Below, in pieces: positions 51,756-58,348 of a stretch of DNA of 64,000 bases (its first letter is position 1; every line of letters starts with the position of its first letter). Position numbers and translations under genes: made by a program. This stretch comes from Phycisphaerae bacterium (GTDB lineage: Bacteria > Planctomycetota > Phycisphaerae > UBA1845 > Fen-1342): assembly GCA_017999985.1 (NCBI GenBank), contig JAGNKU010000001.1, positions 1 to 64,000 on the forward strand. Direction: 5' to 3'. Under the pieces are notes generated by a model. That model was not told the DNA's origin. It did not search any database and saw only the letters and a list, made by a program, of their open reading frames with translations.

Positions 51756-51998
51756 TCACGCCGCGGACCCACGCCCCGCGTCCTCATGGGCGATTCCGAG
51801 AATCAGTGCCACCCCCATTCCCAGCACCGCCAGGACCGTGTCCTCACTGACCGCCAGTCCCACCTGGGCCGCGTAGGCCACGATCAGGGTGGCGACCGCC
51901 ACCTGCACTTTGCGGCTCCGCAACGGCCACAGCCACCGCCGCCAGCCCGTCGACGGCAACGCGGGTATCTGCTCGCGTAACGGCTCATTCGTTCTCAT
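51756..51998 (-). CDS. Holin-like small membrane protein
   Basis: 80 residues from ATG at 51998, with GGGAGG upstream. Two hydrophobic helices (about 31-47 and 53-68) lie between a basic N-terminus and a short charged tail. Size and shape suit a phage holin or other membrane protein. The start lies within the last codons of the lipoprotein gene, so translation is coupled. As the last gene of the cluster, a lysis role would fit, but sequence does not prove it. Confidence 0.5.
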   Translation of the reverse strand: MRTNEPLREQIPALPSTGWRRWLWPLRSRKVQVAVATLIVAYAAQVGLAVSEDTVLAVLGMGVALILGIAHEDAGRGSAA

Positions 51999-52437
51999 CG
52001 ACGACCTCCCGCGCAACCTGCGTCGCCAGGCCTTGCTGCACACGATCCGCCCGCGCCGCGATCGTCTTCCAGAGCAAGTCGATCACCGACTGGTCCGCGT
52101 AGAGCTTCGCGTCCACCCCGACCACACGCAGCGCCCGGGCCCGCTCGAACTGGAGCGACCAGAACTCGATCAGGTCCCGGTCGTTCCACGCGGCGTTGAG
52201 CGCTGCGCGCTGCTCCGCCGTCAACGGCGCGTCCGCCGCGGCCAGGCGCTGCACGAGGTCGCGGTACAGCAGCGTGCAGAGCGCTTCGTGCTGCCGGTCG
52301 AAAACCGCCTGCTGCACATCGTCCGCCCGGCGCTGCGTCTCCAGAGCCACGCGCGTCGACTCCGCCGTGCAGCCGCCACTCACCCCGAGCGCCAGCGCCG
52401 CAACACACCACATTGCCGGTCTGAATCGTCGATTCAT
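51985..52437 (-). CDS. Phage-cluster lipoprotein (spanin-like position)
   Basis: 150 residues from ATG at 52437, whose first bases overlap the previous stop (ATGA). A lipobox VSGGC places the lipidated Cys near residue 23. The mature part is helical and charged (RVALETQRRADDVQQAVFDRQ). A lipoprotein next to a holin-like gene is reminiscent of an outer-membrane spanin, though the length is larger than usual and no inner-membrane partner is seen. It could also be a host lipoprotein captured in the cluster. Confidence 0.5.
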   Translation of the reverse strand: MNRRFRPAMWCVAALALGVSGGCTAESTRVALETQRRADDVQQAVFDRQHEALCTLLYRDLVQRLAAADAPLTAEQRAALNAAWNDRDLIEFWSLQFERARALRVVGVDAKLYADQSVIDLLWKTIAARADRVQQGLATQVAREVVDENE

Positions 52438-52739
52438 AGCGACCCTCCCAGTGCGCCCAACGCCTTGAGCGCTGCCAGAAAACCGTCCATCCATTTCTCC
52501 GCGGTCAGCGCTTCGGACATGCGCTGCGCCGTCGCCCGCAGCGCATCCGGCGACAGCCACCCGTCGGGCGGCGCGGTGCGCGATAGGGTCGCCGATTCGT
52601 AATCCCGCGCTGCAGGCGTCTGTGTCGCCCGGCTGCGCTCGGCCTCGATCAGCAGCGCGTCGATCAAGTGCCGCGCCGCGGAGACGAACGCCCGCGCCGT
52701 CCCCGCATCGATGTTCTGAATCACCGTTCGCCAATCCAT
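52434..52739 (-). CDS. 101-residue helical protein in the phage cluster
   Basis: Starts at ATG with AAGGAG and ends in the lipoprotein's ATGA. The product is soluble and mainly helical (TARAFVSAARHLIDALLIEAER; KWMDGFLAALKALGALG), with no signal or known motif. Its place between head and lysis-like genes suggests a phage accessory protein. Unrecognised. Confidence 0.5.
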   Translation of the reverse strand: MDWRTVIQNIDAGTARAFVSAARHLIDALLIEAERSRATQTPAARDYESATLSRTAPPDGWLSPDALRATAQRMSEALTAEKWMDGFLAALKALGALGGSL

Positions 52740-52778
52740 GCTTCACTCCTTCCCAACCCGTGGCGCCGCGCTGTGCGC

Positions 52779-53099
52779 TCACGCCACGACCTCGTACCAC
52801 ACGGCGACGCCGAAGCTCGCCGCCGCCCCCTGAAACGTCGCCGTGAATCCCAGGCCCTGGCCCGGCCCCGTGCTCACGGCACACTGCCGCCCGAGCCCGA
52901 GCAGCAGGCCGCCCGGGCCGACATGTATGTGCGGCAGCAGCGGCGCGGCCTCCCCGCTCGGGTCCGCGATCAGTTGCAGGCGCAGCGCCGTCCAACCGCT
53001 AACGAGCAACTTGACGACGCGGATGATCCGCCCGGGTTGCGCCGGCACCAATTCGGTGTTGACTTGCGTGCCCGTGTAACTGCCGAACACGATCGCCAT
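52779..53099 (-). CDS. 106-residue beta-rich protein in the phage cluster
   Basis: Starts at ATG with a GGAGG. The sequence alternates beta strands and glycines (LVPAQPGRIIRVVKLLVSGW; HIHVGPGGLLLGLGR; GVAVWYEVVA) with no helix of note, resembling a head-decoration or fibre-like jelly roll. I do not recognise a family. It sits 51 bases after the gp36-like gene. Confidence 0.5.
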   Translation of the reverse strand: MAIVFGSYTGTQVNTELVPAQPGRIIRVVKLLVSGWTALRLQLIADPSGEAAPLLPHIHVGPGGLLLGLGRQCAVSTGPGQGLGFTATFQGAAASFGVAVWYEVVA

Positions 53100-53150
53100 C
53101 GCTCGGTCCTCCGTCGTTCAACGCGTCCAACTCGTCCGACGCGTGCCGGC

Positions 53151-53603
53151 CTAGAGACCATCCAGTTCGACCGCGGTGAAGACCCGCGGCTGCGCGGCGT
53201 AGCGTGGCCCCGCGTCATCCGCCGTGGATGACGCCGGCGGCGCCGCGGCCGGCAACGTCACCGCGCCTCGTGCCACCGCCTCGAACCAGGCGAGGGCGGT
53301 GGCATACAGCATGCGGATGCGTTGCGGCGGATCACTGACAAACGGTGAACTCTTCCACGCCGCGTGCTCCGCCAGGTCGAGCACCCGCGCCTGCAACACG
53401 CCCGCCAGCCCGGGATGCGCGCCGAGATCCACCGGCGTCGCATACCGTTTCGCCAGGTAGCTGTCCGCTTCCGCCTCGGCCTCGGACACGATCTGCTGCG
53501 CGACATCGTTGTCCGCTGTCGTGCCGTGCACGCGATCCGTCAGGCGCGCGTACAGCGTCACGCCCAGCCGCGCGCTCAAATCAGTCGTCGTGATGTACGC
53601 CAT
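53151..53603 (-). CDS. Mu gp36-like head protein (DUF1320)
   Basis: 150 residues with GGGGAG upstream. The N-terminal MAYITTTDLSARLG and the helical bundle with EAEAEADSYLAKRY match the DUF1320/gp36 family, proteins of Mu-like heads near the neck. The Pro/Ala-rich C-terminal third is not part of the family. It follows the gpT capsid gene, the same order as in phage Mu. Confidence 0.78.
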   Translation of the reverse strand: MAYITTTDLSARLGVTLYARLTDRVHGTTADNDVAQQIVSEAEAEADSYLAKRYATPVDLGAHPGLAGVLQARVLDLAEHAAWKSSPFVSDPPQRIRMLYATALAWFEAVARGAVTLPAAAPPASSTADDAGPRYAAQPRVFTAVELDGL

Positions 53604-53670
53604 TGAGGTCGCTCCCCAAGGGAACGGCGCACCGGCTCATGCCCAGCGCCGGCGCCGCCCCGTGCCCGCC

Positions 53671-54600
53671 CTAGCTGAATGTCACGCGGCAGGCATCCTG
53701 CCAGAAGCCGTAGCCCGCCTCGTGAATCGCCTTCACGCCATACTGGTGCTGGTTCTCGTTGACCTCGAGCTCGCTGCCCTCGGCCAGCACCTGGATCTGC
53801 ACGGGCAGCTCTTCCTGGAAGATGAAGGGTCGCGTACTGCCGTCGGCGCGGAAGATCGCGAAGCGGTCGGTCCAGGTGAGGCGCGGGTTGGCCACCCACG
53901 TCACGCGAAACGGCTCGCCGGTCACCAGCGGGTTGCGCTGCGCATCGGCCGTGCGTGTCGCGAGCGCCGCCAGCGTCGCCGACAGGAAGCTCAGCGGCAC
54001 CATGATCAGGAACTCGCGGGCCGACTCGTTCATCGGCTCGCCCTGGTCGTCCTTGATCTGCATGATCTGGGCGATGCCCTGCACGATGGCCTCGTACATC
54101 TCCACGTCGGTCGGCGCGGTCGGCGTCGCCGCGTCGTGCGTGATGTCGTTGCTCTGCGTGCCGGAGTCGCCCTCGGCGTGGTCCGTGTCGAAGAACGGGT
54201 GCCCGTCGTAGCAGGCTGCCGTGTGCCCGCTCAGCATCAGCGTCGTGAAGAGCTTGTTGGGGTGCGTCGCGACCCGCCGCGCCAGTTCGTTGACCCGCAC
54301 CATGATCTGGCCGGTCTTGTCACGCCGCTGCTCGTCGGCGTCCACGCGCACCGTCGCTTCCCACGTCTTGTTCACCAGCGTGAGGCCCTGGCTGCGCAGC
54401 GGGCGCACGCGCCGGCCGCCGATCCACTCGCGCACCTGCGGCACCATGCCCAGCCAGCGGTACGTCTCCGACTCCTGGTTGCTGCTGAAGTGCATCGCCA
54501 GGCGCGTCCACCACGCGCTCTGGGCGTACTCCTCCAGCCGGCGATAGAACCGCCCGACGACGGCCCGGGAAGTCAACCCCGTATCCGTGATCACGCTCAT
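53671..54600 (-). CDS. Mu-like major capsid protein (gpT family)
   Basis: 309 residues from ATG at 54600 with GGGAGGAAA upstream. LTLVNKTWEATVRVDADEQRRD and GHPFFDTDHAEGDSG (the latter typical of the family) identify the Mu gpT major head subunit. It should self-assemble into an HK97-like shell. The frame is complete at the usual length, with no sign of decay. It lies between the DUF2190-like gene and gp36, as expected for a head operon. Confidence 0.88.
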   Translation of the reverse strand: MSVITDTGLTSRAVVGRFYRRLEEYAQSAWWTRLAMHFSSNQESETYRWLGMVPQVREWIGGRRVRPLRSQGLTLVNKTWEATVRVDADEQRRDKTGQIMVRVNELARRVATHPNKLFTTLMLSGHTAACYDGHPFFDTDHAEGDSGTQSNDITHDAATPTAPTDVEMYEAIVQGIAQIMQIKDDQGEPMNESAREFLIMVPLSFLSATLAALATRTADAQRNPLVTGEPFRVTWVANPRLTWTDRFAIFRADGSTRPFIFQEELPVQIQVLAEGSELEVNENQHQYGVKAIHEAGYGFWQDACRVTFS

Positions 54601-54669
54601 GTGTTTCCTCCCTGGAAATAGTCCGTTTCGAGACGCCACCTCCCTACGCGGGAGAGGCCTTGCCAGGCG

Positions 54670-55407
54670 CTAAGCCACGTCCCGGCTCAGGATCACCCAC
54701 TCACTGCCCGTGCACAACAGCAGCGCCACGTCGTACTGCGCATCGAGCGCCGTGTACGTCGTCGCCCCATCGATCATCTCCGACCCGTTGCCGTCGAGCG
54801 TCACCGCCTGCGCCGCGGCCGACGTCTTCACCACGCGCAACCAGCCGCCGGCCCGTACCGTGGCCACCGGCGGCAGCGTCAGCGTCCGCGCCGCGCTGTT
54901 CGCGATCAGCAGCGTGCGGTTGACGTGATCCAGCGTCAGCGTTGCGTTCGCGTCGGCCAGCATCACCACCGGGCCATTCTCCAGCAGCCCGCAGACTTGC
55001 GCCACCGGGGCGCACCGCACGCGGGCCACGCTCGCGGCCTCCACGGCGACGACGCGCCCCACGCGGCTGTTGCCGCTGGGCGTGAGCGTCAGCGTGTCGT
55101 CCGCGCTGGCGTACACGGCCTTGCCGATGTCCGCCGGCGACACGCCGCTCAGGGCGTGTACGATGTCCACCGCCTGGTGCAGCCGCACGAGCGCGCCGCC
55201 GGCAACATGCCCGGGCTGCGTGTTGTCCACGGCCCGGTACGCCCAGCCGAGGAAGTCGTCACCGGCGACGAGGGCCCGCGCGTAGCCCGTCGCCCGGTTG
55301 CGGCCCACAAGCGACCCCTTGTAGATTCGCGCGTTGTCGTCCACCGGCAGGTCAATCAGCTCCTGCGAGCTGTAGAACTCCACGTTGCGATTCGCCGTCA
55401 AAGCCAT
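54670..55407 (-). CDS. DUF2190-like capsid-associated protein
   Basis: 245 residues with AGGAGA upstream. The N-terminal half contains IYKGSLVGRNRATGYAR and DIGKAVYASADDTLTLT, followed by SRVGRVVAVE, the pattern of DUF2190 proteins that decorate or stabilise phage heads. The C-terminal half (about 145-245) has regular beta strands (TLTLDHVNRTLLIANSAART) like a fibre or adhesion domain. The combination suggests a head spike. Similarity to the family is moderate. Confidence 0.6.
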   Translation of the reverse strand: MALTANRNVEFYSSQELIDLPVDDNARIYKGSLVGRNRATGYARALVAGDDFLGWAYRAVDNTQPGHVAGGALVRLHQAVDIVHALSGVSPADIGKAVYASADDTLTLTPSGNSRVGRVVAVEAASVARVRCAPVAQVCGLLENGPVVMLADANATLTLDHVNRTLLIANSAARTLTLPPVATVRAGGWLRVVKTSAAAQAVTLDGNGSEMIDGATTYTALDAQYDVALLLCTGSEWVILSRDVA

Positions 55408-55462
55408 CTTCCGTTCTCCTGTAGAAACGCTGCTTGCTTGTCCGGATGCCCGCCGATGCGCG

Positions 55463-56530
55463 TTAGCGCCCCGCGGTCAACACACGCCCGGCCGCCGCCG
55501 CCCGCTCGTACGCCGCCCAGTCCTCGGCATCCACCGCCCACGGACCGGAGGGCCCGCTCGTCCTGGGGGGCAGTACCGCGCGCTGGCCGGGTACGATCAC
55601 TCTTCCCGGCGGACGCAGCACCGGTGCGTGTGACAGCCGCTCCGCGGTCTCTTCCGGATCGCGCAGGTAGTCCGTGCGCCAGTCCGCGCTCGTGCACTCG
55701 ACGATCTTGCCCAGCCGCAGCCCCCGCTCGACGAACGCCTGCGCTTCCTGCTCCAGCAGTTGCCGGCGCAAGACGTCGATTTCACGCCGGGCCGCTTCGA
55801 GCTCGACATCCGGCTCGTCCTCCTCGTCACGTCGCCGTTTCGCCGCCAGCGGGCACACGCCGCGCATCGCCGGATCGTTGGTGAGCGCCACCGGCCCGAG
55901 CGCCGCCAGGGCCGTCTGGTCCTCGTCGGTCCAGAAGATGACCGGCGAGAAATAGCGGTATTCACCGCTACGGAGCAGCTCGCTGGCCCGCGCCGTCCAG
56001 GTCACGTCGACCGCCCACAGCCCGTCGGCGCGCACCTCGAGCCCCCCGATCCAGCCCGCCGCCGGCCGCAACCCGTCGCAGCGCGGGTTGCACGTGTCGA
56101 AGCTTTGGTGCTCGTAGTCCACGGCCAGCTTGCGACCCATCCGGTCGAACCACTGCTTCGCCGCCTCGGCGTGGGACCGCGTGAACACGAAGCTGTCACC
56201 CGCGATCGGCCGCTCCACGACAACCTCGCCAAAGGGAATCAACAGGAATTCCGTCACCGGCTCGCCGCGCGCCGTCGCGAAGGCTGCGAAGGGCAGGCTC
56301 GATGACGGTTGCGCCGCCTGCGCGTTTGCCGTCGCCGTGGCCGTCAATTCCAGCCCCTCCACCCAGTCCGAGACCTCGGCGAGCAGCCGGCGGAACCGCG
56401 CCAGTTGCCCGCCGAGCCCGTTGTCCGCGATGCACAGCGCCTGCTGCAGCCGTGCGCGGATCTGCTCCCGCACGAACGGCCCCACCGTCACCGGCGTGCC
56501 CGACTCGTTCTGTCCGTTACACGTATCCAA
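55463..56530 (-). CDS. Mu-like prohead protease/scaffold (I protein family)
   Basis: 355 residues from a TTG at 56530 with GAGGGAAG upstream; no ATG fits. FLLIPFGEVVVERPI, AVDYEHQSF (the His is a likely catalytic residue) and GLWAVDVTWTARASELL followed by YRYFSPVI are signatures of the Mu I protease. A charged helical tail (about 250-310) looks like the scaffold part. It should cut itself and shell proteins during head maturation. The TTG start implies low translation. Confidence 0.8.
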   Translation of the reverse strand: MDTCNGQNESGTPVTVGPFVREQIRARLQQALCIADNGLGGQLARFRRLLAEVSDWVEGLELTATATANAQAAQPSSSLPFAAFATARGEPVTEFLLIPFGEVVVERPIAGDSFVFTRSHAEAAKQWFDRMGRKLAVDYEHQSFDTCNPRCDGLRPAAGWIGGLEVRADGLWAVDVTWTARASELLRSGEYRYFSPVIFWTDEDQTALAALGPVALTNDPAMRGVCPLAAKRRRDEEDEPDVELEAARREIDVLRRQLLEQEAQAFVERGLRLGKIVECTSADWRTDYLRDPEETAERLSHAPVLRPPGRVIVPGQRAVLPPRTSGPSGPWAVDAEDWAAYERAAAAGRVLTAGR

Positions 56531-56579
56531 CGCTCTTCCCTCGCTTTCTCCCGCCAACGCCCCCGCGGCCCGTGACGGA

Positions 56580-57068
56580 TCAGTCCGTCTTCGCACTCCG
56601 CGGGCGGCGTTTGCGCATGACCTCGATGTGTCCCTTCCCGTGCGAGCGCCCGAGGCTCTCAAACCCCAGCGCCGCGTAGAACGCCCGCGGGTCGCCGCTG
56701 CTCATGTCGCATTTCGCACGCACCTCCGTCGCCCCGCTGTACTGCACCAGCGCCCGCCCGATTCCCAGCCCGCGATACGCCGGATGCACCAGCACATTCA
56801 CCAGCCGCGTGCCGCGCGTGGTGACCGCCGCCCCGACCAGCACGGCGTCGATCTCCGCGACGTAGACCTGGTGGTACGGGCTGCGCAGCATCTCCGCGAG
56901 CTGCCCCCGTCGCAGGAAATAGTCTTTCCGCAGCGCGGTGTCGAAGAAGAAGCTCAGCGGCACGTAGTCACCCGCCAGCGCCGGCCGCACCGTCAGGGTC
57001 GCCACCGGCACCGTGGCCGTGGCGCGCGTCCTTGTTACCTCCGCCGCGCGCGGACAAGCAGCACTCAT
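56580..57068 (-). CDS. GNAT-family N-acetyltransferase within the phage head operon
   Basis: 162 residues; the ATG overlaps the portal stop (ATGA). The acetyl-CoA loop is seen as VHPAYRGLGIGRALVQ (V-x-P-x-x-R-G-x-G-I-G-R), and the C-terminal AFYAALGFESLGR matches motif B. It likely acetylates an amine on a protein or small molecule. The head position is where Mu carries MuF-type genes instead. Substrate unknown; a capsid protein or host factor is a guess. Confidence 0.75.
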   Translation of the reverse strand: MSAACPRAAEVTRTRATATVPVATLTVRPALAGDYVPLSFFFDTALRKDYFLRRGQLAEMLRSPYHQVYVAEIDAVLVGAAVTTRGTRLVNVLVHPAYRGLGIGRALVQYSGATEVRAKCDMSSGDPRAFYAALGFESLGRSHGKGHIEVMRKRRPRSAKTD

Positions 57069-58348
57069 ACTTCGTTCCTCCCCTGCAAAACGGCCTCAGC
57101 GCCCCGCCGCATCGGGATGCCCAGCGCCTGGTGCGCCCACTCCGCCGGCACCGCCAGCCCCAACTCGTTGATCGCCACCGCCAGCGTGTCCGCCAGCACC
57201 TTCGTGTCCACCGACTGAAGCAGCGAGCGCCGGAAGTGCGGTACCGCCGCGCCAGCGCCGAAGCGCGCCTGCACGAGCGGCGTCAGCACATCGCGCCGGA
57301 TCGTGCGGCCTTCTTCACCGATGTCGTTGACGAGCAGGTCTTCGCGCACGCGGTCGTGGATCTCCGCCGCCGCCCGCGAGCCCGACTGCCGCAGGTCCGT
57401 CGTGAGGTGCTGCCCGAGCCAGAGGATCGTCACTTCCGTGTTGCAGTAGTCCTGCAATGCTTCGAAGGGCCGTTCGCCCGCGCTGGACGACTCGATGAAC
57501 TTCAGCTCGACATTCTTCCCCAGCACCGCGACCGCGTCCGTGCCCAGCGATTCGAGCATCCTCAGGAGGCGCTGCTGGTCCGCGACCGGCGTGCCCGGCT
57601 CGAACTGCGCGACGCGCACCGGCATCCCCGCGACCTGCGAGTAGATCAGCCAGTCCTTGAAGCTCAGGTTCTGCGCCAGGTAGAGCACGACCGACGCGCG
57701 CAGCAATCCGCCCGAGAAATGTCGGCTCGCCGCCGCCTGCGGCCGGTGCACGATCCATTTCAGCGGCTGCTCGTCGAGCGCAAGACCCCGGCTCGGCTCG
57801 TCCTCGGTCAGCACGCGCAAGCGCCACGGTGCCTGTGGATCGCTGATCAAGCGGCCGTGCGGCACCGGCACGAGATCGACCAGTTGACCCCCTTCCCAGA
57901 CGAGCTCCGCGACGGCCAGGCCGTATCCGATCGCCGCCGCCAGGTGCTCCAGTGCATCGCTGAAATGCTCCAGGCGTGCCAGCACAGAACGGCAGTACTC
58001 GGCCGCCTCAGCCGCGCCGGGTCCCGCCGCGGCGCCCGGCACGATTTCCCAATCGAGCCCCGTCAGGGCGAGACGCCGCGTGTGCTCCACCGCGGCCAAG
58101 CGCGGCCACTTCTGCAGCATCTCGTCAAAGAGCTCGAATTGGGCCTGCGGCGTGCCGGCGTCGGCGGCCTGCAGGAGGCCGAGCAGCCGCGCCGGCGTAA
58201 GTCCGACGCTCGGGTATGTGTGGAGGCTGTCTGCGCGCCACGGTTGAATGAGGCGGGACGCGTCGCGCCGTCCACGTGGCCGCCGGGGCCACAGTGACCC
58301 CAGGACGCGGAGGGCGGCGGCGACGCGCTGTCGGGTGTGCAGGTTCAA
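57065..58348 (-). CDS. Mu-like portal protein (DUF935, gp29 family)
   Basis: 427 residues from a TTG at 58348 with CCAGGAG upstream. SRLIQPWRADSL, TRRLALTGLDWEI, LKFIESSSAGERPFEAL and the LGQHLTTDLRQSGSRAAAEIHDRVRED segment are typical of DUF935. Portals form a dodecamer through which DNA enters the head. Normally the terminase gene lies just upstream; here 152 bases of non-coding DNA and a membrane-protein gene do. The frame is intact and coupled to the GNAT gene. Confidence 0.88.
   Translation of the reverse strand: MNLHTRQRVAAALRVLGSLWPRRPRGRRDASRLIQPWRADSLHTYPSVGLTPARLLGLLQAADAGTPQAQFELFDEMLQKWPRLAAVEHTRRLALTGLDWEIVPGAAAGPGAAEAAEYCRSVLARLEHFSDALEHLAAAIGYGLAVAELVWEGGQLVDLVPVPHGRLISDPQAPWRLRVLTEDEPSRGLALDEQPLKWIVHRPQAAASRHFSGGLLRASVVLYLAQNLSFKDWLIYSQVAGMPVRVAQFEPGTPVADQQRLLRMLESLGTDAVAVLGKNVELKFIESSSAGERPFEALQDYCNTEVTILWLGQHLTTDLRQSGSRAAAEIHDRVREDLLVNDIGEEGRTIRRDVLTPLVQARFGAGAAVPHFRRSLLQSVDTKVLADTLAVAINELGLAVPAEWAHQALGIPMRRGAEAVLQGRNEV

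Follow-up and report, generated by a model that had tools for sequence, protein, structure and literature searches.

A domesticated Mu-type phage head with a separately encoded terminase as a candidate gene transfer agent in Phycisphaerae bacteria

A unit of ten genes in the 64,000-nucleotide stretch of Phycisphaerae bacterium DNA that was analysed (the window) is almost certainly a domesticated phage head system. It is probably, although with appreciable room for doubt, the vertically inherited, DNA-packaging head of a candidate gene transfer agent (GTA) of the Phycisphaerae, perhaps a tailless one spread over several loci. A domesticated capsid such as a gene-transfer particle had been put forward in the initial annotation, and this agrees with retention of the genes across the family, mostly as single copies and in conserved order, with their dN/dS, with rough congruence with RpoB and with near-absence elsewhere.

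Ten uninterrupted minus-strand frames spanning 51756-58348 were found to form one unit from the open reading frames and from reading of the sequence (Table 1). The portal, protease, cement, capsid and gp36 genes are in order, open and unbroken, as first described, and were confirmed by HMM matches. That inventory was otherwise incomplete, as five more genes lie within the same coordinates (an acetyltransferase of the GNAT type and four genes downstream of gp36). Coupling of some genes was also borne out: the GNAT start overlaps the portal stop (ATGA), the u52 stop overlaps the lipoprotein start, and the lipoprotein and membrane-protein genes overlap in turn. The open reading frames flanking the unit on either side include no recognised terminase, MuF, tail or transposase gene, in agreement with the initial annotation, and the module itself has no recognised gene for phage replication, integration or repression.

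Table 1. Genes of the ten-gene unit, with positions in the window. Module counts refer to the family of the host.
Feature	Coordinates	Strand	Start	Basis and occurrence
Portal protein, Mu gp29 type	57065..58348	-	TTG 58348, read from sequence, AGGAG upstream	Portal_Mu E 2.9e-74, phrog_113 1e-74 (HMM searches)
GNAT N-acetyltransferase	56580..57068	-	ATG 57068	Acetyltransf_7 3.3e-12; in 17 modules
Head protease I/scaffold, Mu type	55463..56530	-	TTG 56530, proposed	Mu-like_Pro 1.4e-32, phrog_328 2.8e-29
Capsid cement/decoration protein	54670..55407	-	ATG 55407	phrog_1731 1.9e-19
Major capsid protein, gpT type	53671..54600	-	ATG 54600, strong ribosome site	Mu-like_gpT 1.2e-45
gp36-type head-tail adaptor/connector	53151..53603	-	ATG 53603	Phage_Mu_Gp36 1.5e-19, phrog_195 7.7e-23
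u52b, small beta-sandwich, virion-protein-like	52779..53099	-	ATG 53099	predicted fold; in 10 modules
u52, small strongly conserved protein	52434..52739	-	ATG 52739	alignment; in 18 modules
Putative lipoprotein (signal peptide, lipobox-like cysteine)	51985..52437	-	ATG 52437	in 18 modules
Small hydrophobic hairpin membrane protein, holin-like	51756..51998	-	ATG 51998	

A profile built on portals of the family and of its order matched the solved phage portal 8rka (E 2.3e-76), and the capsid matched the solved capsid 8rkc (E 3.8e-27). The GNAT gene, for which no solved structure matched at E 0.001, occupies the position held by MuF in D3112-type phages, and in one family genome (G011) portal and GNAT lie in a single open reading frame. 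A 758-aa frame at L041:5101-7377 unites portal and GNAT through a repeat-rich linker of the DGRGSD type. Alignment of the cement protein shows a cement domain at the N terminus and, at the C terminus, a beta domain some 110 aa long, which resembles the tail-fibre family phrog_4209 weakly (E 0.0015). The AlphaFold model of u52b (pLDDT 93) is a beta-sandwich resembling small phage proteins; its closest matches in a viral structure library, at TM 0.5-0.75, are predicted phage proteins, many of them some 106-117 aa long, and nothing was found below E 0.001 among PDB structures. The u52 protein is probably helical, judging from its sequence. Across 15 aligned sequences, Cys23 of the lipoprotein is invariant; for the membrane protein, 26 alignment columns are invariant among 15 sequences, and 7 of the 15 members gave sub-threshold holin matches. 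At L078:2489-3112, the lipoprotein and the hydrophobic hairpin protein are merged in a single open frame of 207 aa.

The distribution of the unit was examined in genomes that are drafts, many of them MAGs. Capsid matches were obtained in 84 of the 101 genomes searched, including that of the host, and in 58 of the 63 better ones, compared with only 6 of 291 genomes sampled from the rest of the phylum. Within the family of the host (coded f1; 27 genomes from 24 genera), 22 genomes contained the capsid and one more, G020, the portal, so that head genes are found in 23. The capsid match is single in these genomes except in G021, which has a second short fragment. The order portal-GNAT-protease-cement-capsid-gp36 is kept in the 13 family loci examined by tblastn, most of which also contain u52, the lipoprotein and the membrane gene, with u52b more variable; at the G012 locus, none of the last four genes gave a tblastn match. 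An AMMECR1 neighbour on one side is common to five genera, counting that of the window, and the other flanks differ. In pattern scans of IMG/VR, the best viral contig reached at most 54% identity to the capsid; members of the family stand at 60-84%.

Inheritance was assessed by comparison with RpoB. Distances within the family correlate with those of RpoB for the capsid, portal, cement, gp36, terminase, lipoprotein and u52 (rho 0.40-0.64, p 0.0015-0.043), and the correlation is not significant for the protease (p 0.12) and GNAT (p 0.08). The f1, f7 and f8 groups are recovered in the tree of concatenated head genes as well as in that of RpoB, and inner branches of f1 differ between the two trees; the congruence is moderate, with conflicts. 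Breakage of the frames in relatives, which would have spoken against a domesticated capsid, was tested for, and the frames are intact in most family genomes. The dN/dS measurement proposed in the initial annotation was made by the Nei-Gojobori method and gave mostly 0.1-0.35 for the head genes, 0.26-0.49 for u52b and 0.09-0.23 for RpoB, with synonymous sites close to saturation in several pairs; the sole same-genus pair gave 0.04 for the capsid. Mean identity across the family is 74% for the capsid and 82% for RpoB. The head genes are under purifying selection.

The absence of packaging genes, as first claimed, holds locally but not across the genome. A matching large terminase (TerL) of the Mu/D3112 type is encoded at C12:130069-131610 in the host genome (G000), with the head on contig C1, and was found in most of the family. 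It came to light through phrog_2, which in several family genomes gave weak nuclease-domain matches to open reading frames about 530 aa long. It matches the profiles NF033889 (E 9.4e-20) and TIGR01630 (E 3.3e-8), in each case short of the curated cut-off. Most other phrog_2 matches in the family were set aside as weak P-loop matches of a kind also seen in controls. A search by PF03237 alone missed the conserved TerL and gave only a prophage-like region on contig C8 of G000; this region (L053:12099-18086, outside the window) is a separate module with TerL, portal, protease and capsid, and with DNA methyltransferase-like genes upstream. The conserved TerL is present in 23 of the 27 family genomes, with a fragment in G024, and gave weak or divergent matches in some genomes of the order outside the family. 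Head and TerL occur together in 21 family genomes and are unlinked in most; G013 and G020 have head genes and no TerL match, and G015, which is 99% complete, has TerL at C5:13603-15006 and no capsid or portal match. In G011, TerL lies directly upstream of the portal on the same strand and ends about 40 bases before the portal start. The neighbours of TerL in G000 (KdsA, lysine aminomutase and an SppA-like protein) are presumably host-type genes, and no neighbour is conserved across the family, except in pairs. Its phage relatives are SuMu and D3112-type Pseudomonas phages (28-31%), in which portal and capsid are of the same kind. No match to solved structures was obtained for TerL at E 0.001, and the TerL type of the rest of the order was sought in the family and is absent but for a divergent copy in G004.

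The nuclease motifs and both Walker motifs (A and B) are preserved in the full-length copies of TerL, apart from a single pattern miss, in G017; the G023 copy was read partly. TerL distances track those of the capsid (rho 0.66, p 5e-4). An intact terminase that diversifies together with the capsid points to a head that packages DNA and speaks against an empty compartment. A terminase nearby had been named at the outset as evidence against a domesticated particle; the one found lies elsewhere in the genome, and strengthens the gene-transfer reading. A domesticated protein shell, empty or loaded with cargo as in encapsulins and not serving DNA, would account for a head with no adjoining terminase and no tail found, and for the acetyltransferase coupled to the portal gene. 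However, a simple shell needs no portal, protease or connector, all of which are under purifying selection here, and a compartment is unlikely.

Tail genes were sought by two tests across the 27 family genomes, which could miss divergent tails: PhageMin_Tail, as a tape-measure search, was over its cut-off in one genome, and the baseplate hub A10 of the sister type gave only divergent partial matches. No conserved tail gene was found in the family by these tests, which counts against the GTA reading as regards delivery; the moderate congruence with RpoB and the genomes with TerL or head genes alone also count against that reading. Some modules of other families in the order (f4, f7 and f8) contain a Mu gp37-like gene, by a sub-threshold match, and a protein of 724 aa, for which a low-confidence model matched baseplate hubs including Mu gp44; the host's family lacks both, apart from the divergent partial matches to the hub. 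An active Mu-like phage or prophage finds no counterpart here, since transposition, integration and tail genes were unrecognised in the module and its flanks and both family-wide tail tests were negative. Capsid-forming PICIs have a head, TerL and connector without a tail, and the same architecture here, together with prophage-like regions such as that on C8 of G000, would suit a tailless head that uses the tails of resident phages. Such tail piracy is slightly less likely still than a compartment, because the module has no recognised integrase or replication gene, and because near-universal vertical occurrence and a split between two loci are unlike a mobile satellite. Partial head sets can interfere with phages, and capsid parts might be kept to poison the assembly of infecting phages, but interference would not need a full set of co-evolving assembly genes that includes TerL, the protease and lysis-like genes, which makes an anti-phage device improbable. 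A decaying prophage remnant, suggested by the loss of most phage functions around the head genes, is the least credible reading, as frames are intact in most family genomes, the dN/dS and capsid identity given above do not fit relaxed selection, and neither frameshifts nor stops mark the module.

For the preferred reading, a DNA-packaging head of a candidate GTA, we infer particle assembly, DNA packaging, lysis and delivery, along with any role of the portal-coupled acetyltransferase. The portal would nucleate the gpT capsid, which the Mu-type protease would mature and the cement protein stabilise. Docked on the portal, the unlinked TerL would pump cellular DNA into the head, which gp36 would close. 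The lipoprotein and hydrophobic hairpin protein could release the particle through the envelope, and the beta domain of the cement protein and u52b may bind the recipient in place of a tail.

Outside the family, the order contains its own near-universal head module with a different TerL and capsid. In f4, f7 and f8, these modules share the Mu-type portal-protease-cement-MCP-gp36 set, near-universal presence and mostly one capsid copy, and they differ in having another TerL, a capsid of separate origin and no GNAT match; as far as found, they are undescribed. At L046-L052 and L057-L065, an order-wide head module, second to that of the host's family, has TerL apart from the head in f4 genomes and two alternative downstream gene sets, one including a laminin-G-like lectin. 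In a capsid tree with phages, the family sequences fall with phi3LM21-type siphophages, in a different clade from the capsids of the order; a single clade of family and order capsids was rejected (p-AU 0.004), whereas a single clade of their portals was not (p 0.35). This implies that domestication took place twice or that one old system had its capsid and terminase replaced. Tentatively, two lineages of one order may have domesticated Mu-type heads separately, with the host's family running a tailless DNA particle that has its motor gene elsewhere and an acetyltransferase-coupled portal.

Few gene transfer agents are understood, and most planctomycetes are uncultured. Retention of such a system in most of a family, alongside a sister system elsewhere in the order, would extend the GTAs to a further phylum, and would make it testable whether such particles function when they have no tail of their own and their terminase is physically apart. 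The findings suggest that these bacteria make DNA-carrying particles of their own out of a domesticated virus. No report of a planctomycete GTA was found in the titles and abstracts searched, a scope that excluded preprint servers and many subscription papers.

One review takes GTAs to have arisen several times, from different phages (PMC11841831). The GTA criteria of another (PMC9662315) comprise particle proteins derived from caudoviricetes, an endogenised genome, often at several loci, and mostly vertical inheritance, and further a genome that is not fully packageable, packaging of mostly random host DNA and delivery of DNA to cells. The head genes are homologous to tailed-phage families by the sequence route; head and TerL are endogenised on C1 and C12, the latter among host-type genes; and vertical co-diversification is seen in the family-wide distribution, trees and Mantel tests, with moderate agreement and some conflicts. 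Location of the loci on different contigs suggests that the genome is not fully packageable. D3112/B3-type transposable phages (JBD26, SuMu) share the TerL, portal, protease and gpT capsid families, and the gene order in JBD26 is TerL-portal-MuF-neck-protease-cement-MCP-adaptor. In contrast, the module of the family has no recognised MuF, tape measure or transposition gene, GNAT replaces MuF, and its capsid is nearer to phi3LM21-type siphophages than to the D3112/B3 type. In organisation, the system is like the RcGTA-type agents of Alphaproteobacteria, which, by the definition in PMC9662315, are fully endogenised at several loci, vertically inherited and without replication genes; unlike the unit in the window, the RcGTA core cluster encodes head and tail (PMC11841831). 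The closest analogue in the literature found is FpGTA of Faecalibacterium, described in PMC12946183 as most likely podovirus-like and genus-wide, with particle DNA of about 9 kb. It resembles the present system in its short portal-capsid-TerL operon, a second locus that adds structural and lysis genes, conservation across the genus and lack of identifiable tails; the system described here differs in that it has a Mu-type head, is family-wide and has TerL by itself at its own locus.
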